NCBI RefSeq assembly: GCF_000020965.1 | Contig: NC_011297.1 | Location: 186,001-250,000, forward strand | From: Dictyoglomus thermophilum H-6-12 | GTDB lineage: Bacteria; Dictyoglomota; Dictyoglomia; Dictyoglomales; Dictyoglomaceae | Reading direction: 5' to 3' | DNA: 64,000 nucleotides | Part shown: piece after piece, positions 43,208 to 63,182 of the stretch | Layout of the letters: every line of letters starts with the position of its first letter | Numbering within the stretch: the first letter of the stretch is position 1 | Notes under the pieces: generated by a model | The model's input: only the letters and a program-made list of their open reading frames with translations | What the model was told of the DNA's origin: nothing | Database searches by the model: none | Position numbers and translations under genes: made by a program

Positions 43208-44731
43208 ATGCCCAAGGAAATTTCTTATATCAATAGGATTATATCCGCGTATGGATCTTATGCGAAACCATTTTTAAACTGGATTTTGGAAACAGGCAGA
43301 ATTTCTTCAGCCTGGAAAACTTATTTTTTAGCATTGAAATTATATTGGAAAGGAGAATATTTTTTAGCTTTAAGTAAATTAGAAAAAGCCCTTAATAAGT
43401 GCAATAATAGTAAAACATTATATTATCTTGTTCTTACTCAAAAGCTTGCATTTTTATCAAGGGTAAATAGTAAAGAAGGAGTAGAGCTCTTTCACAAGTT
43501 AAAACAAGAATTCCCTTATATTCCATCCTATGTAAGAAATATTGCAGTCTCATCACTCCTTCATTACTATGCTACTATCTTCCCATCTAATCTCCCCAAG
43601 TTTCGTATTTGGAGCAATAGTTATCATTTAGACTCTTCCTCCCAGGTTTTTATATTCTTAGGTAAGGCAAGAGAAGAGATAAAAAAAGAAAATATTAGAA
43701 AAGCCATATTTTACTACGTTAAAGCTTTTAGAACATCCCTATCTATTCCCCATCCAACAGGAATTATCAATAGTTTAAACAACCTCTCTTGGAATCTTAA
43801 AGAAAGACATCCTAAATTTTCTCTATCATTAGCTAAAAAAGCTGTTTATTACTGTGCTTTATATAGGGAAGATCTATCTTATGATTTTGCTGTTCTGGAT
43901 ACTCTTTTTGAAGTACAGAGGATTAATAATGATCTTTCTATTTGTGAGACTTCTATGATTATTAAGCACTATTATAAATTTTTGTCAGATTCTTCTGGAA
44001 ATTACAATAAACAGCACTACAGAAAAACCTTTGAATCCTCTAAAAGATTTTGTTTTGATTTAGAACCTTCTTTCTATAAAAATAATGGAGAATTGAGAGA
44101 TTTAAATAAAGTTTCAAATATTAAACCTGATTTTAATAATCTCCCCCTTGAAGTATTAATTGAATTGAGAAGAATAAACATATTAAAAAACTTTCAGAGA
44201 ACCATAGAAAAATTAAATAATGTATCAAAGGACGCAAGAGAAAATTTAATTCTCTCAAGTTTTATGAGTCTTTGTGATAGAAAAAGTTTATTTCCTTCTA
44301 CTTATAAAAAGATTAAAAACATATTGGATTTCTCAGAGAATATTAAAAGACTCATTAATTTTGCGAAGAGGGATTTTGAGGTTATAAGATTTTTATCCTA
44401 TATCTCTAATGACCATCCTTTTTTTGAAGCAAGAATGGATTTAGCAAAAAAATTTTTGGAAACTCTACTCCCAGAGAAAAGAGAATTTTTCATAAGTTTT
44501 TACCTCTCTCTAAAGGAAAAAGAAAAAGAGCTTATAGATGCTTTTGTGAGGAATTATGTAAGATATGATAGAGATTGGCATATTAAAATACCTACTCCTG
44601 CAGAAATAGTTTCTTTTGTTAAAGGATTTCAGCTGAAGGAACTGCCTTCTTCTTTAGCTTATTTTTGCTTTGAGAGGAGAGAAAGAAGAAATTTCAATAA
44701 AATAATTAATGAAATGATGGTTAATGCTTAA
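43208..44731 (+). CDS. Regulator-like helical repeat protein, full-length copy of a three-copy family
   Basis: A 507-residue protein without signal peptide or membrane span. Residues 30-120 read like TPR helices ('ALKLYWKGEYFLALSKLEKA', 'TLYYLVLTQKLAFLSRVNSK'), and more helical pairs follow to about 250. The C-terminal part 'IPTPAEIVSFVKGFQLKELP' is not a recognised DNA-binding motif. The first ~120 residues and the upstream 150 bp are almost identical to copies at 55560 and 63613. TPR architecture, divergent placement and linkage to peptide operons recall peptide-sensing RRNPP regulators, but no HTH is visible and the assignment is only a proposal. Confidence 0.7.
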   Translation: MPKEISYINRIISAYGSYAKPFLNWILETGRISSAWKTYFLALKLYWKGEYFLALSKLEKALNKCNNSKTLYYLVLTQKLAFLSRVNSKEGVELFHKLKQEFPYIPSYVRNIAVSSLLHYYATIFPSNLPKFRIWSNSYHLDSSSQVFIFLGKAREEIKKENIRKAIFYYVKAFRTSLSIPHPTGIINSLNNLSWNLKERHPKFSLSLAKKAVYYCALYREDLSYDFAVLDTLFEVQRINNDLSICETSMIIKHYYKFLSDSSGNYNKQHYRKTFESSKRFCFDLEPSFYKNNGELRDLNKVSNIKPDFNNLPLEVLIELRRINILKNFQRTIEKLNNVSKDARENLILSSFMSLCDRKSLFPSTYKKIKNILDFSENIKRLINFAKRDFEVIRFLSYISNDHPFFEARMDLAKKFLETLLPEKREFFISFYLSLKEKEKELIDAFVRNYVRYDRDWHIKIPTPAEIVSFVKGFQLKELPSSLAYFCFERRERRNFNKIINEMMVNA

Positions 44732-48595: not shown

Positions 48596-49849
48596 TCACC
48601 CCCATATTCCTTCCAATGGATTATACTTACAAAATTTCACTTCACCTAGGCTACTCCCTTTTAGTAATTCGAAGGCTCTACAATCTAGACAAGCATATCT
48701 AAATTCGCAATACTTACATGGATAAAGCTTCTCTTTGGATAGTTCGTAAAATCTGTCAATTGTTCCCTTTATGAAAAGATCTGGTATTTTACTTTCTTTA
48801 ACGCTTCCCAATACTAAATTTCTAAGCATTGGGCAAAGGAGATATTTACCTTCAAGGGTAATTGTTATTTTCCCTTTAAGACAAGGATTGTAAATTTTTC
48901 GTAATTCAAAGTCAGAGACAAATACTGGTAGAATGTCATTTTTTTCAATGTAGTGATCAAACATATAGCTTTCAGAAATATTTTGTTTATTAATATTTAG
49001 GTCTGTAGTCATGTTTTCTATTATTATATTTTTTTGTTTATAAGATTCTAAATCGCAAAATCGAAAATTGATATAAAATTGAATATCTTCTTCTTTTAGT
49101 TTTCTTAAATTATTTAAAAGAAAAGCAAAACTCTTTTGAGAGATAGTATTATAGAGGGATTATGGCAAAAAAATGCTAATGATAGGTTTTAAATTGTAAT
49201 GCTTTATTAAATTTCTACTTTTTTTCGTAGCTATATTTATTCCATGAGTTAGAATAAAAATATTTTCAAAATTGAATTTGTCTAAATTTCTACAAAAATT
49301 GACTAAAGATGTGATTTCTAAAAATGGGTCACCTCCTAAAATTACTAATGTCTTACATCTCAAATTATTTACTTCCTGTAGTATTTCTAACCATAATTCT
49401 TCACTAATTCTTTTTTTGTAGCTTATTTGAGTACATCCCAAACAACCGAATTTTATAGGATAATTTTTACAAAAATAACAAGAAAAATCACATGTACTAC
49501 TCACTTCTATAAAGGCAATATCTAAATTAGGAGCAGGTTTGTTAAATAGATGTTTCTGCATAAAAAGAGGAAAGCCTAAACTTAATTTATCTATATAAGC
49601 TTTATTTTCATATTTTCTTATTATTCCGTTTTGCTTTAGAACTCTCACAAATTCCATAATTTCGGTCTTAGATAGTCCATTTATTATATTTAGTATCTCC
49701 TCAAAGGGCATTTTGTCTAAAAGTTCTATAATTCTTGTTCTTTCTTCACAAAGATGAATAATTTCCCCCTGAAGGGTATTATATAATGCACTTTTTTTTC
49801 TTCCTTTAACAAAATAGATTTCTGGAGATAGTCTATAATATGTGCTCAT
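48596..49849 (-). pseudogene. Radical SAM/SPASM peptide maturase 2 of cluster A, one in-frame TAA
   Basis: Two frames, 49849-49160 and 49012-48596, are in the same phase. The 49 codons between them are open except for a single TAA at 49162-49160 ('SIFLP stop SLYNTISQKS'). Read through it, a 418-residue protein results: an N-terminal PqqD-like peptide-binding domain (residues 1-85), the radical SAM site C120-xxx-C124-xx-C127, and a C-terminal SPASM cysteine set ('CKYCEFRYACLDC'). A TAA from CAA is the simplest lesion. It may be a recent pseudogene, a sequencing error, or programmed readthrough. Confidence 0.8.
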
Positions 49850-51732: not shown

Positions 51733-51860
51733 CTAGACTAAAATAAATGAAAATGTTATTAGATTTGATACCAAATTTAAATTCTTCCGTAGCATCTTAG
51801 AGTCTTTTTCTTGTTATCCTCTTCTAAAGGATCCTCATATGTAATTCTCATAGTGAACAT
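51733..51860 (-). pseudogene. Small membrane peptide relic at head of cluster A
   Basis: ATG 51860 reads 'MFTMRITYEDPLEEDNKKK'; with one extra A in the A-run the frame would go on 'DSKMLRKNLNLVSNL' to 51733. The parts match the small gene at 55340-55144 and the relic at 61107-60881. The N-terminal hydrophobic segment is missing. It sits between the 40-bp motif and precursor A1. Confidence 0.5.
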
Positions 51861-51894
51861 GAGCCTCACATATTCCCCTTAAGCTTTCTATTTT

Positions 51895-52022
51895 CACTTT
51901 ACCTTTTTGCATATGACTTTCAACTTTACCCTACTTAGGAACGCTGATGAAATCTTTATTTTAATAGGGCAAATTTTTTTTATTTTTAAATTTTTTGAAG
52001 ATAAAACGTTTTACTAAAAAAA
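51895..52022. repeat. Truncated copy of control module, M3
   Basis: The 40-bp motif at 51901-51940 and the following AT-rich block up to the CGTTTTACTAAAAA stretch match 43031-43150. The match ends before the regulator promoter, and no regulator gene follows. The motif can still serve the minus-strand cluster A. Confidence 0.8.
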
Positions 52023-52179: not shown

Positions 52180-52872
52180 TTATGGAATTGTCAAAACTAC
52201 GGTCTCATTATTAATTCTTTTTCCAAACACAAAAGAGACTAAAATTAAAATTATCCCTAATAAAGCTAAACCCAGAAAGATAAAACTATCATATTTCGCA
52301 TTCAATGGAATTTTCTGCATTATATAATTCCATCCAAATATGATTGAAAATCCAATTATCCACAGCAAGTTATTAATTAAGTTTACCTTTCTTATCCTCA
52401 AAACAAGAGTACACATCATACTCGCAAGTCCTATGTTAAAAATAGAAATAATACCTAATATCTTTATTAAATCAAAAAAATTAATAGATTTTTTAAGAAG
52501 CAAAAAAAGAATAAAATTAGCTATAAATACACAGAAAATTAATATAAACTCAGTTATTATCCATAGAGATATTATAGAACCAAAAAGATAAGACCTAACC
52601 CCAACCCCATTAGATAGTAAAAACTCTATCCTACCTGTAATTTTTTCATAAACTATAAGATCTGAAAGAATCATACTCGTTGTAAAAGCTAATATAGAAG
52701 ATCCCATAAGCAAAAGTATTCTTGAAAATATGAAATAAGATACATTAAAGGGCATATCCTTCAAAAGTGCAAAAAGAGTATAACTCACAACTCCTGTAAG
52801 GAAAATAACTTGAAAATAAAAAGTACTATTTTTAAACACATTTTGTAAATTATATTTGATAATTTTACCCAT
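52180..52872 (-). CDS. ABC-2 type permease of cluster B
   Basis: A 230-residue membrane protein with six hydrophobic segments. 'EKITGRIEFLLSNGVGVRSY' is the amphipathic coupling segment of ABC-2 permeases. It lies two bases after the ATPase gene and is the last gene of cluster B. It probably exports, or gives immunity to, the peptide made by this cluster. Confidence 0.82.
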   Translation of the reverse strand: MGKIIKYNLQNVFKNSTFYFQVIFLTGVVSYTLFALLKDMPFNVSYFIFSRILLLMGSSILAFTTSMILSDLIVYEKITGRIEFLLSNGVGVRSYLFGSIISLWIITEFILIFCVFIANFILFLLLKKSINFFDLIKILGIISIFNIGLASMMCTLVLRIRKVNLINNLLWIIGFSIIFGWNYIMQKIPLNAKYDSFIFLGLALLGIILILVSFVFGKRINNETVVLTIP

Positions 52873-52874
52873 TT

Positions 52875-53582
52875 TTAACCTCCCCCTATTACATCAAGAA
52901 ATAATTCCTCAAGATCTCTATATTTTCCAAGAATTTCACTCTTCATATCATCTACTAATATCTTTCCCTCTTTTATAAGAATCACTCTATGAGCAAGTTT
53001 TTCTAGCTCTCCCAAATCATGAGAGGTCAATATTACGCTTTTTCCTTTCTGATTTAAATCAAGAATTAATTCTCTCATATTTTTTCGAGAAATAGGATCA
53101 AGCCCACTCATAGGTTCATCCAAAACTAAGAGATCTGGATTTTTCAAAAGAGCTAAAAGAAAACTTAGTTTTCTTTTTGTCCCTTTAGAATAAGTATAGA
53201 CCTTTTGAGACAGAAAATCTAAAATTCCTAACTTCTCTGCATAAACTTCAATATCATTTTTTTCTACTCCTCTTCCAAGAAGTTCAGCATATATCTTTAT
53301 ATTCTCCCATCCTGAATACTTTTCCCATAAAAGATCTTTCTCAAGCATTACAGAGATGATTAAATTATTAACCTTTTCTATATTCCCAGAAGTAACATTG
53401 AATATCCCTGTTAAACAGCGAAGAATAGTAGTCTTTCCTGCTCCATTTGGACCCAAAAGTGCTGTAATCTCTCCTCTTACTATATCAAAGGAAATATTTT
53501 TTAAAATTTTCTTTCCATTTATTTCTTTTGAAAGATTTCTAATAGAAATGAGTTTTTCAGAAATTCTTTTCTCCATACACAT
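52875..53582 (-). CDS. ABC transporter ATPase of cluster B
   Basis: A 235-residue ATPase with Walker A '[20 protein letters not shown]', signature 'YSKGTKRKLSFLLALL', Walker B 'LLVLDEPMSGLD' and switch His in 'LTSHDLGE'. It partners the permease at 52180. ATG 53582 or 53576 is possible; both lie inside the end of the maturase gene, an overlap of about 60 bases that couples their translation. Confidence 0.92.
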   Translation of the reverse strand: MCMEKRISEKLISIRNLSKEINGKKILKNISFDIVRGEITALLGPNGAGKTTILRCLTGIFNVTSGNIEKVNNLIISVMLEKDLLWEKYSGWENIKIYAELLGRGVEKNDIEVYAEKLGILDFLSQKVYTYSKGTKRKLSFLLALLKNPDLLVLDEPMSGLDPISRKNMRELILDLNQKGKSVILTSHDLGELEKLAHRVILIKEGKILVDDMKSEILGKYRDLEELFLDVIGGG

Positions 53583-54916
53583 TTGTCTTCTCCTTCCCCA
53601 TATGCTTTCATTAAACCTCTAACTAGACAATTATTGCAAAACCACAAATTTTCGCATTCTTTACATATTCTTTTATTTGGTGCAGGAATTTGAGAAATAA
53701 TTTCGAAATACATCGAATAAGTTTGTAAAAAATTCTTTAAAGAGTTCCCAGAAAACTTTAAATTGCCTATACTCATATCTGACATTTGGCAAATTTTAAC
53801 ATCAAGATTAGGAGAGAGAGTTATGCCAGATCTTCCAACACCACAATTTATCGAATCTGACATAATTTCTTCTTCAATTACTGATATAAAATTCTTACCA
53901 TATTTTTCGATTAAATTTTCTATATTTTTTTCAAACATAGCAAAGGCTTTATCGTCAAGAGATATTATTAAATCATTATTAGACTTAGCTCGCCCAATAG
54001 GAGCAATAGGACCAAAAGCGACTGCGGTAGCTCCAAGTTTATAAGCAATTTCAGCAACATCTGCCATTTGCTCAACATTAAGTGAAGTTACATTACATAC
54101 GACTCTCACAACTATTCCTAAATCTGATAACTTTTTTATGCTGTCAATCGCTGAATAGTAAGCTTTTTCATTACCTGTAAACCAACGTACATACTCTGGA
54201 GAACTTCCGTGAAGATCTATTTGTACAACTACTCTTTCTCTATTATAGTATAAAAGTTGACATATCTCCTCAGAGAGATTACTCCCATTAGTAAGTAAGC
54301 CAATTAATTCGAAATTATAAGTAAACAATTTCTTGAGAAATTCTTCTATATTTGAATAAACAGTTGGTTCTCCTCCTGTCAATTCTATTTCTCGTATTCC
54401 TAATTTATATGCTTCTTCAAGTATAGAAAGAATAACATCTGTTTTCATTTCAGATAACATATATATAGAAGAGTTATTGTAACAATGTTTACATTGATAA
54501 TTACATCTGTAAGTTAATTCTAAGACTAAGCCAAATGGAACTAAATAATCCCAACTTCCTGTTTTTGTAAAACAAGAATTTTTTATTTCATATTTATTTT
54601 TGCATTCAATCACAGAAATACCGTATCTATTATAAAGACGTTCAAAAAATATTGATATATTTCTAAAAACATTTTCCTCTGTGTCATTATATTTTCTACA
54701 GAAATAATTTACTATCTCAGAAAGACTTAAAGGTTCATACATCTTTTCAATAATTTCACCAGCAACTTTATTTAATTTGATTGCAGCCTGTTGTTTAAGA
54801 CGACCTCTCTTAGGAAGTTTTTTAGAATCAAAACATAAAAAAGCATACTGAGGTTGTAAATGCAACCTTAGATTATCAACGTCTAGTTTTAGATAAACAT
54901 TACTATCCAGGTTCAT
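53519..54916 (-). CDS. Radical SAM/SPASM peptide maturase of cluster B (PqqD-PqqE-like)
   Basis: A 465-residue protein. Residues about 45-105 look like a PqqD-type peptide-binding domain ('AIKLNKVAGEIIEKMYEPLS'). The radical SAM site is C138-xxx-C142-xx-C145 ('CNYQCKHCYNN'), then 'ELTGGEPTVYSNIEEF'. The SPASM domain has cysteines in 'CGVGRSG', 'CQMSD' and 'CKECENLWFCNNCLVRG'. Intact and full length. It probably modifies the Cys-rich peptide encoded just upstream, behind a hairpin. Similarity to PqqE suggests a carbon-centred cross-link, but the chemistry is unknown. Confidence 0.9.
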   Translation of the reverse strand: MNLDSNVYLKLDVDNLRLHLQPQYAFLCFDSKKLPKRGRLKQQAAIKLNKVAGEIIEKMYEPLSLSEIVNYFCRKYNDTEENVFRNISIFFERLYNRYGISVIECKNKYEIKNSCFTKTGSWDYLVPFGLVLELTYRCNYQCKHCYNNSSIYMLSEMKTDVILSILEEAYKLGIREIELTGGEPTVYSNIEEFLKKLFTYNFELIGLLTNGSNLSEEICQLLYYNRERVVVQIDLHGSSPEYVRWFTGNEKAYYSAIDSIKKLSDLGIVVRVVCNVTSLNVEQMADVAEIAYKLGATAVAFGPIAPIGRAKSNNDLIISLDDKAFAMFEKNIENLIEKYGKNFISVIEEEIMSDSINCGVGRSGITLSPNLDVKICQMSDMSIGNLKFSGNSLKNFLQTYSMYFEIISQIPAPNKRICKECENLWFCNNCLVRGLMKAYGEGEDKCVWRKEFLKNSFLLEIFQKK

Positions 54917-54945
54917 GCCTTTTAATCTTAACCTCCTTTTCTTAT

Positions 54946-54976
54946 TTTAGGTGCCGCTTTTTCAGCGGCACCTAAA
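54946..54976 (-). terminator. Hairpin between precursor peptide and maturase, cluster B
   Basis: Stem TAGGTGCCGC / GCGGCACCTA with a seven-base loop and no long T-run, nine bases after the precursor stop. Same position and probable function as the hairpin at 51270 in cluster A. Confidence 0.75.
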
Positions 54977-54984
54977 GCTATAAC

Positions 54985-55122
54985 CTATCTTAACCCTACA
55001 AATCCTACAAAAGTGGCAATCCATGCAGCTTGTACTTTGCCAGGACACCACCTACAAAATCCACATCCAGTACACCCAGCACACCAATTTTTTTCTACCC
55101 CAATAATTTGAGGTTCAGGCAT
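54985..55122 (-). CDS. Cys-rich precursor peptide B (five Cys, spacing three)
   Basis: A 45-residue peptide with cysteines at 14, 17, 20, 23 and 26, that is CxxCxxCxxCxxC ('WCAGCTGCGFCRWCPG'). The tail 'QAAWIATFVGFVGLR' is hydrophobic. GGAGGTGAAGGAA precedes the ATG. It is placed like peptides A1 and A2 in cluster A, between the small membrane peptide and the maturase, but with a Cys period of three instead of four. It is a probable RiPP precursor. A ferredoxin-like metal-binding peptide is the alternative. Confidence 0.75.
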   Translation of the reverse strand: MPEPQIIGVEKNWCAGCTGCGFCRWCPGKVQAAWIATFVGFVGLR

Positions 55123-55143
55123 TTCCTTCACCTCCTTTCTTCC

Positions 55144-55340
55144 TTATAAATTAAAAATCTCTAAAAATCCAATCAAGGGTCCAGAGATTATTAAAACCAA
55201 GGGAATCTTCATAGTATCTTGGATTCTTTTTTCTTGTTATCATCTTCTAAAGGGTCTGCATATATAACTTTAATAGAAAGTATTAACATGAAAATTATTA
55301 AAAGTATTGAAAGAAATATATTTTTATCCTTCTTTTTCAT
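55144..55340 (-). CDS. Small signal-peptide-like protein (43 aa) and coupled 22-aa frame, head of cluster B
   Basis: ATG 55340 has GGGAGG nine bases upstream. It encodes 43 residues (stop 55209): a basic start, a hydrophobic stretch of about 20 residues, 'IYADPLEDDNKKKESKIL', then TGA. An ATG overlapping that stop (55212) opens a second 22-residue hydrophobic frame 'MKIPLVLIISGPLIGFLEIF'. Comparison with 61107-60881 suggests the two were once one two-span protein of about 95 residues. As it stands the first frame looks like a secreted peptide of the pheromone type. The function is unknown. Confidence 0.5.
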
Positions 55341-55374
55341 TTTACATATTCCTCCCACTTAAACTTTTAATTTC

Positions 55375-55557
55375 CACTTTACCTTTTTGCATATGACTTT
55401 CAACTTTACCCTACTTGGGAATGTTGATGAAATCTTAATTTTAATGGGGCAAAATTTTTGTATTTTTAAGTTTTTTTGAAGATAAAGCGTTTTGGTAGTA
55501 AATTGCTTAGATTAAAGGATATGATATAATTAACAAAAAGTTTTTCCCAATTTTGAG
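55375..55557 (+). promoter_or_regulatory. Control module M4: 40-bp motif and regulator promoter
   Basis: 40-bp motif at 55381-55420, TTGCTT (55503-55508) and TATAAT (55525-55530) 16 bp apart, then the same 23-nt leader before the ATG at 55560. Nearly identical to module M2 and to the copy at 63480-63612. Confidence 0.8.
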
Positions 55558-55559
55558 AT

Positions 55560-55970
55560 ATGCCCAAGGAAATTTCTTATATCAATAAGATCATATCCAC
55601 ATATGGATCTTATGCGAAACCGTTTTTAAACTGGATTTTAGAAACAGGCAAAATTTCTTCAACTTGGAAAGCTTATTTTTGGGCATTGAAATTATATTGG
55701 AAAGGGGAATACCTTTTAGCTTTAAGTAAATTAGAAAAAGCCCTTAATAAGTGTAATAATAGTAAAACATTATATTATCTTGTTCTTACGCAAAAACTTG
55801 CATTCTTATTAAGAGTAAATAGTAAAGAAGGGGTAGAGCTCTTTCACAAATTAAAACGAGAATTCCCTTATATTCCATCTTACGTAAGGAATATTACATC
55901 TTCAACTCTTATTAATTACTACAATTCGTTTCTTTCTTCTAATTCTTCAAAGTTTCGTATTTGGACATAA
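55560..55970 (+). pseudogene. Regulator-like protein, truncated copy
   Basis: A 136-codon frame matching the first 140 residues of the 43208 protein and almost identical to the copy at 63613. It ends 'KFRIWT' and then a stop, exactly where similarity to 43208 ends ('KFRIWSNS'). The following DNA carries fragments of unrelated genes, so the 3' two thirds were lost by recombination. The short product could still fold as a pair or two of TPR helices. Confidence 0.7.
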
Positions 55971-59882: not shown

Positions 59883-60874
59883 TCAACCAATAAGCTTCAA
59901 AGCATCATCAGCACTTTCTCCACAAAAAATGTTATAGATAAGATTATGAAACCCAATAATAGAAGCTCCTTTACTGTTTTGATGTCTCCCAACTAAATAA
60001 ACTCTTCCTATAATCTTTCCGTTCTCTATTATATGATATTCTTCCCATCTTTTTCGTTAGAATTAGAAAGTGAAAATTCTGCTCCTGGAATGATAAATAA
60101 AGGTGGATATTTATCAGGTGGAACCTCAATGGTATTTCCTAAAGATATCGCTTTCCCCGAATTAAATAATCCTTCAGTAATAATTACATATTCCTTCCAT
60201 TCCTTTTCGGAGAGAAAATTATATATCTCTATGAAATTTTCCTCTGCCTAACTCACAATGCATTTTTAGTTTTACTCCTCGGAATTTAAAATTTTTTTCC
60301 CTCAAAATTTTACACGCAGTTAAGAAATTTTTTAACCATGTCTCTCATTAGACTTATACCTAACGTATTATGGGACTCTATTTCTTCACGCGTGAGAACA
60401 GTTTTTTTAATGTGATTTACATATCTATATAAGCTTCCCGCATGATGTTCGTCACAAGATAGATGAATTTCTACATTTTCCTTTACTATTCCCAAGTTAA
60501 CTAAATTTTCTATGGTCTCTTTTACTCCTTCCTTTCCTTTTTTTAAAGAGATGACACCTTCTACCACTTGTAAAAATATATATTGGAATAGACCTTTCGA
60601 AATTTTTATAAGTCAAAATTTTAATAACTTCTGATAATCCTTTATATTCTAATGGTTCACCCCCAGTAAGTCTTATTTCTCTTAGTTTATTAAAATCTAC
60701 TTTCCTCCAAAAATTAATGTGCCATTCTGTAGGTAAGTAAAAACCTAAAAATTTATTATAAGACCAACAATGAGCACAACTCCCGCTACAAGAAGGATTT
60801 AGGAAATAAACAACTTCCCATCCATTAGGATGTATTTTTTTATTATCAAAGTCCAAATATAATGGAAGATTCAT
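59883..60874 (-). pseudogene. Radical SAM protein of cluster C, frameshifted
   Basis: ATG 60874 opens a frame with C29-xxx-C33-xx-C36 ('CSGSCAHCWSY') and 'IRLTGGEPLEYKGL', which breaks near 60560. It continues in other frames as 'VVEGVISLKKGKEGVKETI', 'MHCELGRG', 'YNFLSEKEWKEYVIITEGLF' and 'GRVYLVGRHQNSKGASIIGF' to 59883. About 330 residues in total with at least three frame changes. It lacks a clear SPASM Cys set, so it may belong to a different radical SAM type from clusters A and B. Confidence 0.75.
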
Positions 60875-60880
60875 TTTGTT

Positions 60881-61107
60881 TTAAGTATTATGATAGTATT
60901 CATACTTTTTCCATATAAGCCCTTCTATTACTTGTTTTGCAAAAATAGGTAGTATCCTTTTCCCTTCCTTTCTTCCTTTAAAATTAAAAATCTCCAAAAA
61001 TCCAATCAAGGCTCCGGAAATTATTAAAACCAAGTGAAACCTTTGTAGTATCTTGGATTCTTTTTCTTGTTATCACCTTCTAAAGGATCCTCATATGCAA
61101 TTCTCAT
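60881..61107 (-). pseudogene. Small membrane protein relic at head of cluster C
   Basis: ATG 61107 reads 'MRIAYEDPLEGDNKKKNPRY'. In the neighbouring frame the DNA goes on 'ILQRFHLVLIISGALIGFLE' and 'IFNFKGRKEGKRILPIFAKQ' to 60881, where it almost touches the radical SAM start. This is the longest version of the family seen at 55144 and 51733. The A-run after 'DNK' is one base shorter than in the 55340 copy. Confidence 0.5.
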
Positions 61108-61154
61108 AGTAAATATGAGCCTCACATATTCCTTTCACTTAAACCTTTTGTTTT

Positions 61155-61215
61155 CACTTTACCTTTTTGCATATGACTTTCAAATTTACCCTACTTGGGA
61201 ATGTTGTTAAGATCT
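61155..61215 (-). promoter_or_regulatory. Dispersed 40-bp motif, copy M5
   Basis: Motif core at 61161-61200, upstream of minus-strand cluster C. The DNA beyond it (61200-61350) resembles 34895-35070 rather than the regulator-bearing modules. Confidence 0.8.
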
Positions 61216-61299
61216 TATTTTCAAGTTTTATTTTTTTATATTTTTCAATTTTTTGTAATTTGAGTGTTTTTTGTAGAAAAATATTTGTATATGAATTAT

Positions 61300-61459: not shown

Positions 61460-63182
61460 TCACTTAGTTGGATATGGTCCTGTGTTTCCATTGCTATCCA
61501 GTTTTATTATGTAAACATCGATTCCACCTGCACCAAAGGAGGTTGTACCTCCTGCAACTATATATCCCCCATCTGATGTTTGCTGAATTGAACATGCCAA
61601 ATCATTATCACTTCCACCGAAAGTTTTCTCCCACATTTTATTTCCATCCTTATCCAGTTTTATTATGTAAACATCTACTCTTCCTGCACCAAAGGAGGCT
61701 GTACCTCCTGCGACGATATATCCGCCATCTGATGTTTGCTGAACTGAAGCTGCCACATCATCACTTTTTCCACCGAAAGTTTTTTCCCACATTTTATTTC
61801 CATCCTTATCCAGTTTTATTATGTAAAAATCGTTTCCTCCTGCACCAAAGGAGGTTGTAAACTCCTGCGACAATATATCCCCCATCTGATGTTTGCTGAA
61901 TTGACCATGCCCGATCATCACTTTTTCCCCCAAAAGTTTTTTCCCACATTTTATTTCCATCCTTATCCAGTTTTATTATGTAAACATCGATTCCTCCTGC
62001 ACCAAAGGAGGTTGTACCTCCTGCAACTATATATCCGCCATCTGATGTTTGCTGAATTGAAGCTGCCCCATCATCACCTTTTCCGCCGAAATATTTTTCC
62101 CACATTTTATTTCCGTTACTATCCAGTTTTATTATGTAAACATCTACTCCTCCTGCACCAAAGGAATATGTACCTCCTGCGACAATATATCCCCCATCTG
62201 ATGTTTGCTGAATTGAATATGCCCCATCATCACTTTTTCCGCCAAAAACTTTTTGCCAAGTTATCACTTCTTGTGATGAAGATGGTTGAGTAGGTTTTGA
62301 AGATTCACCTGCGTCCAGTTTTATTATGTAAACATCGATTCCTCCTGCACCAAAGGAGGTTGTACCTCCTGCAACTATATATCCCCCATCTGATGTTTGC
62401 TGAATTGAATTTGCATAATCATTACCACTTCCACCGAAAGTTTTTTCCCACATTTTATTTCCATTCCTATCCAGTTTTATTATGTAAATATCTTCTCCAC
62501 CTGCGCCAAAGGAGGGTGTATATCCTGCGACGATATATCCGCCATCTGATGTTTGCTGAATTGAATTTGCCACATCATCACTTTTTCCGCCGAAAGTTTT
62601 TTCCCACATTTTATTTCCATTGCTATCTAGTTTTATTATGTAAACATCTTCTTCTCCTGCACCAAAGGAATATGTACCTCCTGCAACTATATATCCCCCA
62701 TCTGATGTTTGTTGAATTGAACATGCCAAATCATTATCACTTCCACCGAAAGTTTTCTCCCACATTTTATTTCCATCCTTATCCAGTTTTATTATGTAAA
62801 CATCTGCTCTTCCTGCACCAAAGGAATATGTGCCTCCTGCGACGATATATCCGCCATCTGATGTTTGCTGAACTGAAGCTGCCACATCATCACTTTTTCC
62901 CCCAAAAGTTTTTTCCCACATTTTATTTCCATCCTTATCCAGTTTTATTATGTAAAAATCGTTTCCTCCTGCACCAAAGGAGGTTGTAACTCCTGCGATG
63001 ATATATCCCCCATCTGATGTTTGCTGAATTGAATATGCCCCATCATCACTTTTTCCCCCAAAAACTTTTTGCCAAGTTATTCCTTCTTGTGATGAAGATG
63101 ATTGAGTGGGGTTTGAAAATCCACAAGACAAAAGAAGGATTAAGATTAATGGAATAATTTTAATATACCCTTTTAAATTCAT
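61460..63182 (-). pseudogene. Lipoprotein with ten ~52-residue propeller-like repeats, one frameshift
   Basis: ATG 63182 begins a signal peptide with a lipobox ending at C20 ('LLLSC'). Ten repeats follow, each 'WEKTFGGKSDDVAxSIQQTS' then 'DGGYIVAGGTxSFGAGG' and 'DVYIIKLDxxGNKM'. They form two blocks of five, the second introduced by a second copy of the 'PTQxSSSQE' linker. An extra A at about 61858-61861 breaks repeat eight; the frame resumes and ends 'NGNTGPYPTK' at 61460. The product is truncated to 458 residues unless this is a sequencing error or slippage site. Probable envelope beta-propeller protein. Confidence 0.8.
61480..63110 (-). repeat. ~156-bp tandem repeats in lipoprotein gene
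   Basis: Ten units of about 156 bp, for example CATCTGATGTTTGCTGAA recurring at about 61570, 61726 and onward. Units are highly alike at DNA level, and the pattern 5+5 points to an internal block duplication. Long plus-strand frames here are shadows of the repeat. Confidence 0.88.

Follow-up and report, generated by a model that had tools for sequence, protein, structure and literature searches.

A putative five-cysteine sactipeptide precursor with a strict three-residue period beside an AlbA-like radical-SAM maturase in Dictyoglomus thermophilum

In a 64,000-nt stretch of the Dictyoglomus thermophilum H-6-12 genome (the window), a 45-codon frame on the minus strand (54985-55122) translates into the peptide MPEPQIIGVEKNWCAGCTGCGFCRWCPGKVQAAWIATFVGFVGLR, followed by a stop codon. 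The five cysteines of this peptide, referred to here as B, occupy positions 14, 17, 20, 23 and 26, exactly as an earlier note on this DNA had read them. Its leader is MPEPQIIGVEKNW and its tail PGKVQAAWIATFVGFVGLR, the latter being rich in Gly, Ala, Phe and Val. Translation starts at an ATG with a strong ribosome-binding site: the Shine-Dalgarno sequence GGAGGTGA (55128-55135, minus strand), seen by direct reading of the sequence, lies 5 nt before the start codon in the context AAGGAGGTGA-aggaa-ATG. The GTG start picked by the ORF lister lies upstream of the ATG and falls within this Shine-Dalgarno sequence. The earlier remark that the gene is too short for many gene callers does not hold in general, as a 41-aa homologue from Anaerococcus prevotii is annotated (WP_012797179.1). 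None of the NCBIfam precursor models fits B.

Among 200 shuffles of the window made with a second-order Markov model, none contained the five-Cys pattern of period three or that of period four, and four-Cys stretches of period three appeared at 0.03 per shuffle. Across the genome, a single contig of 1,959,987 bp, the five-Cys period-three DNA pattern is present at two sites, B and a second precursor, both of which adjoin an AlbA-like radical-SAM maturase. A reverse-read control of the genome count also gave 2; it was set aside and left out of the argument, because its two matches are probably the same TGT-rich places. Since searches with the pattern only yield many chance matches in other genomes, the period-three pattern is not diagnostic by itself, but becomes so together with the adjoining maturase.

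On the minus strand the genes are ordered precursor B, hairpin, maturase, ABC ATPase and ABC permease-like protein, with B in first position. The precursor, maturase and transporter frames are all open, and both B and the maturase are preceded by good ribosome-binding sites. Between the stop codon of B and the maturase gene lies a perfect 12-bp hairpin (54946-54976, minus strand) with no U-run behind it; the surrounding region (54900-55000, minus strand) folds at -28.5 kcal/mol (z -4.4). This element probably serves in RNA processing or stabilisation and would thereby set the precursor:maturase ratio. The ATP-binding protein of the ABC transporter (52875-53582, minus strand; ABC_tran) is encoded in overlap with the 3' end of the maturase gene and scores 152 bits, below cut-off, against the NCBIfam model galliderm_ABC (lantibiotic protection). 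Directly after it follows a hydrophobic ORF (52180-52872, minus strand) without a family above cut-off in NCBIfam or Pfam, whose permease-like membrane protein is a probable partner in export or self-protection.

The 465-aa radical-SAM maturase (53519-54916, minus strand) consists of an N-terminal PqqD/RRE domain at residues 43-96 (Pfam PqqD, 2.1e-5), a radical-SAM core (Pfam Radical_SAM, 5.4e-22) with the CxxxCxxC cysteines C138, C142 and C145, and SPASM-type C-terminal cysteines at 358, 376, 418, 421, 427, 430 and 446. The radical-SAM triad and the seven C-terminal cysteines are invariant across the relatives described below. With its RRE/PqqD domain, CxxxCxxC core and C-terminal auxiliary-cluster cysteines the enzyme has the features asked of the AlbA/SkfB-type maturase superfamily, and the locus has the short precursor gene next to a radical-SAM/SPASM maturase that is asked of a sactipeptide. 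In NCBIfam the enzyme scores highest with AlbA (135 bits), followed by SkfB (86) and PqqE (73). Hence, of the earlier description as a PqqE-like enzyme with a PqqD-like domain, the PqqD-type recognition domain stands, whereas the PqqE-like character gives way to AlbA and SkfB. In line with this, a PDB profile search places SkfB (6EFN, 1.5e-37) on top, with the SCIFF enzyme CteB (5WGG) also high. An AlphaFold2 model computed from a shallow alignment (mean pLDDT 78, pTM 0.80) retrieves SkfB 6EFN first in Foldseek (E 2.8e-21), then SuiB and CteB. The AlbA equivalog NF012164 has a cut-off of 850 bits, compared to 135 bits for the B maturase and 218 and 229 bits for relatives; judged from its sequence, the enzyme is therefore AlbA-like, not AlbA.

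AlbA-like maturases adjoin five-Cys period-three precursors in a Nanoarchaeota MAG (L017; MPLWCVGCAACAICTLCNWWDPNANAAGFVGFVAFTAW), on the Anaerococcus prevotii plasmid pAPRE01 (MKPEIVAMGNGCKLCAGCTGCMFCGPSPAAGVGVAGFVGFF, annotated as hypothetical protein) and in a genome from the Bacillota search (G464; METPKMNAAPICVGCMACGECIICGPTPSGTECAAVAVGLSAFYN), where the maturase contains an internal stop. A further AlbA-like maturase (G713) stands beside a four-Cys period-three peptide, and at two AlbA-like loci (G636, G442) the peptides have just CxxC and one more Cys. No precursor was found at the AlbA-like loci of Paraclostridium (L130) and of G1024 (L172), and the precursors not found for L016 and G493 presumably lie off-contig. 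Contig C221 of G008 has a B-like pattern (CFLCTGCRFCRCC) that was considered as the absent L016 precursor, but it lies out of frame within a 381-aa ORF and was rejected as a chance match. Altogether a period-three array occurs at 6 of 10 AlbA-like loci versus 1 of 78 distant radical-SAM loci (Fisher p 2.6e-6, in a post hoc comparison with unequal flank lengths). Gene orders similar to that of the B locus are seen in L016, L017 and pAPRE01.

The precursors themselves also share similarity beyond their cysteines. With Cys held fixed, the alignment of B to the A. prevotii precursor has a z of 4.6 and its score was reached by 0 of 1000 shuffles. B and the archaeal L017 peptide have FVGFV in common, equally far from the last Cys, and here 21 of 1000 Cys-fixed shuffles reach the alignment score. 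In a 17-row maturase tree the enzymes of B, A. prevotii and G464 form one subgroup (support 100/99); a second one unites the L017 enzyme with the other AlbA-like maturase of D. thermophilum (100/97), joined by G713 at 91/91. The node uniting these two period-three subgroups is weak (68/85). In the sets sampled such maturases are rare, with 1 among 279 for the phylum to which L017 belongs, 4 among 398 for a Bacillota-type phylum and 3 among 391 for the class of G464, thresholds differing between these sets. None was found in six other Dictyoglomota genomes (E<=1e-25), and the viral contigs searched gave no new member. One contig filed as viral (L111; IMGVR_UViG_3300006674_000791) has a sequence resembling the N-terminal part of the second AlbA-like maturase of the genome, followed by a frame break.

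This second maturase, 30-34% identical to that of B, adjoins a 66-aa precursor, MPYCSACAACAACAGCRPNSACTTCQGCGGCVISPAPDFEVAITGIAATAGYTVFAVGGVAGVAAW, with nine cysteines in one period-three register with a single gap. As the two maturases sit in separate supported subgroups of the tree, the B and nine-Cys systems do not stem from a recent duplication. Searched against all PDB sequences, the nine-Cys peptide has subtilosin A (1PXQ, E 0.037) as its sole match, and the score of this alignment was reached by 0 of 1000 shuffles with Cys held fixed. By eye, a hairpin-forming repeat follows this precursor as well. A second PqqE/AhbD-like radical-SAM gene lies nearby at the nine-Cys locus (L009:8190-9206, minus strand) and at the archaeal locus (L017:3616-4737, minus strand), where it may add a further modification; the B locus is without one.

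These data make it very probable that B is a RiPP precursor which keeps strictly to a Cys period of three and has a maturase of its own. More specifically, we regard it as probable that B is the precursor of a nested-hairpin (type I) sactipeptide with up to five rungs from Cys to alpha-carbon, which the 465-aa enzyme would make and the ABC pair would export. In type I sactipeptides, cysteines of the N-terminal half bond antiparallel to alpha-carbons of the C-terminal half (PMC8326336). For B, the maturase would bind the short leader via its RRE/PqqD domain, and its radical-SAM core would remove alpha-hydrogens within the C-terminal half of the peptide. Bonding of each Cys sulphur to an alpha-carbon would then yield as many as five antiparallel rungs at a distance of three residues. 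After removal of the leader, the downstream ABC pair would export the product, which is likely an antimicrobial peptide, or protect the producer.

The acceptor half of B, a 19-residue tail C-terminal to the five cysteines, is Cys-free, and several registers accommodate all five of them. On the register of thurincin H, with an innermost loop of five residues, the predicted rungs of B are C26-A32, C23-I35, C20-F38, C17-F41 and C14-L44; all these acceptors lie inside the peptide and none is Gly or Pro. The same register leads to N23, A26, F29, F32 and F35 in the L017 peptide. While several acceptor registers avoid Gly and Pro in B and in L017, the A. prevotii peptide has just one, with a four-residue loop, so that a step of +6 from the last Cys fits B and L017 and a step of +5 fits A. 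prevotii. Because A. prevotii fits a four-residue and not a five-residue loop, the register given for B stays a prediction. A sturdier sign is the length of the tail. Cys arrays spanning 9, 12, 12, 12, 12 and 27 residues have tails of about 20 (18-22), 19, 21, 17, 21 and 35 residues, respectively; on these few data points longer Cys arrays come with longer tails, as a nested hairpin would require.

Several known systems resemble this arrangement in part. Thurincin H (ThnA/ThnB, Bacillus thuringiensis), in which Cys 4, 7, 10 and 13 are bonded to residues 28, 25, 22 and 19 with period three on both arms and a five-residue loop (PMC8172795), shares with B the three-residue Cys period, a short leader and an RRE-bearing radical-SAM maturase. 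It differs in having four cysteines rather than five and in its core, which has no similarity to B beyond Cys; its cluster has the precursor gene in three identical copies and also encodes a protease and a regulator, and nothing of this kind is seen next to B. Subtilosin A (SboA/AlbA, Bacillus subtilis) is like B in maturase family, CxxC start, very short leader and hydrophobic Gly-rich tail, but has three cysteines and is cyclised head to tail, while B bears no sign of macrocyclisation. Against both peptides, Cys-fixed shuffles give no significant similarity of B beyond Cys. In the sporulation killing factor system (SkfA/SkfB), SkfB ranks as the nearest relative of the B maturase by structure and by PDB sequence, yet installs a single thioether and has a twitch instead of a full SPASM domain. 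A further counterpart is the A. prevotii pAPRE01 cluster, already listed as sactibiotic-like (Murphy 2011 PMC3132745; PMC4289311), with a homologous five-Cys period-three precursor, a homologous maturase and the same gene order; it differs in residing on a Bacillota plasmid and in its loop and tail lengths, and its product is uncharacterised in these two accounts.

Accordingly, the kind of system, the AlbA/SkfB enzyme family and the A. prevotii cluster are known already, and period three is not new because thurincin H has it. New are the predicted number of rungs, the nine-Cys sibling and the phylum Dictyoglomota. As described sactipeptides generally contain one to four thioethers according to a review (PMC8326336), five and perhaps nine rungs would widen the known range. 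The occurrence of AlbA-type precursors is also extended to Dictyoglomota and to an archaeal MAG, beyond Bacillus, Ruminococcus and Streptococcus as sources of characterised sactipeptides. The sactipeptide and bacteriocin literature searched yielded no published account of such a peptide in Dictyoglomus, which carries little weight as subscription literature lay outside the search. With a five-Cys and a nine-Cys substrate for a pair of related maturases, and in addition a period-four system next to B, this genome is a small natural experiment on how crosslinks are counted and spaced by a radical-SAM enzyme, and the enzymes and peptides involved are probably thermostable. More tentatively, and with appreciable doubt on our part, these peptides may form a "ladder" family: sactipeptides whose rungs are set by an AlbA-type enzyme at a constant spacing of three residues, and whose Cys and acceptor arms have lengthened together in evolution (four, five, nine Cys). 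A single type of processive maturase would in that case cope with widely differing numbers of rungs, and a thermophilic bacterium would make a five-rung B and a paralogue of up to nine rungs, more than in any described sactipeptide.

The alternative that fares best concerns the carbon attacked. With a like precursor and enzyme, B could give a ranthipeptide, in which Cys is joined to beta- or gamma-carbons (compare freyrasin and thermocellin) and the rings possibly lie in line instead of being nested. The B maturase has scores against SPASM ranthipeptide enzymes as well, CteB is among its high PDB matches, and sequence cannot tell which carbon is attacked; AlbA and SkfB are nevertheless its best scores, the tail lacks Asp or Glu acceptors, and the Cys-rich and acceptor halves are separate as in sactipeptide hairpins. 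We therefore consider a ranthipeptide unlikely.

Less probable still is a metal- or Fe-S-binding mini-protein, i.e. a ferredoxin fragment, without thioethers. CxxC runs are often metal ligands, and CTGCGFCRWCP does look superficially ferredoxin-like. A ferredoxin fragment calls for a CxxCxxCxxxCP motif and a family match, but B has the spacing 2-2-2-2 instead of 2-2-3 and no match in NCBIfam or Pfam. Its PDB search gives E 0.11 at best (dynactin), with an iron-sulphur protein at E 1 and no ferredoxin. Moreover, the relatives do not conserve the Pro that follows the last Cys, and an AlbA-type maturase and an exporter adjoin the gene. We attach the same very low probability to B being a non-functional relic, an open frame whose peptide is not made: a third unit near B is visibly decayed and the second radical-SAM gene of the neighbouring A unit is split, but the frames of the B locus are open, with good ribosome-binding sites and an exact Cys array.

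The A unit encodes the precursors A1 and A2, whose five cysteines are indeed spaced four apart, as noted earlier. Both lie just below the cut-off of 35 bits for the huazacin precursor HuaA (NF037972), with 27.2 and 30.7 bits, and adjoin a CcpM/RumMC-like enzyme; the NCBIfam assignments thus bear out that the maturases beside A and B differ in kind. Thuricin Z/huazacin (ThzA) resembles B as a nested sactipeptide with a strict period, but with period four and other maturases it is a relative of A1/A2, not of B. That the number of cysteines was kept and the period changed is probably a coincidence, given that A1/A2 are near huazacin, while the period-three relatives of B accompany AlbA-like enzymes in other phyla. 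The least credible reading, that B arose from A1/A2 by duplication and re-spacing, can point to the equal count of five, a distance of about 3 kb and similar upstream DNA cassettes; we reject it in view of the lack of a HuaA match for B, the grouping of its maturase with AlbA-like enzymes of other phyla (100/99), its far-better-than-shuffled alignment to the A. prevotii precursor, and the location of the shared DNA upstream of, not inside, the precursors.

This shared DNA is a repeated 122-nt cassette upstream of the B unit (55355-55476), the A unit (51875-51996) and the third, decayed unit (61135-61256), with flanking repeats at 55127-55283, 51789-51876 and 60960-61132; the 122-nt and the flanking repeats are 73-91% identical. 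The small ORFs of the cassette share the motif DPLExDNKKK. The copy upstream of B (55209-55340, minus strand) has a good ribosome-binding site, a hydrophobic N-terminus followed by ADPLEDDNKKK and no family match; it could encode a secreted signal peptide, a possible role on which the reading of B does not depend. A 507-aa protein with faint TPR similarity flanks the RiPP region in copies 84-97% identical (43208-44731 and 55560-55970 in the window, genome C1:249613, all on the plus strand), and the copy divergent from B is truncated to 136 aa. The protein could be a peptide-sensing regulator of the cassette. The third RiPP-type unit (60310-60874, minus strand) has a B-like 5' leader followed by broken radical-SAM gene fragments, and no Cys-rich precursor can be recognised in it. 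In the A unit, the second radical-SAM gene is split over two frames (48596-49012 and 49160-49849, minus strand), a GggB-like N-terminal and a SPASM C-terminal part, which suggests a frameshift; huazacin clusters, too, have two such enzymes. Finally, a protein of repeated GG(S/K)xDDxAxSxQQTSDGGYIxAG units, encoded by 156-nt DNA repeats (61460-63182, minus strand), is probably a beta-propeller-like surface protein.
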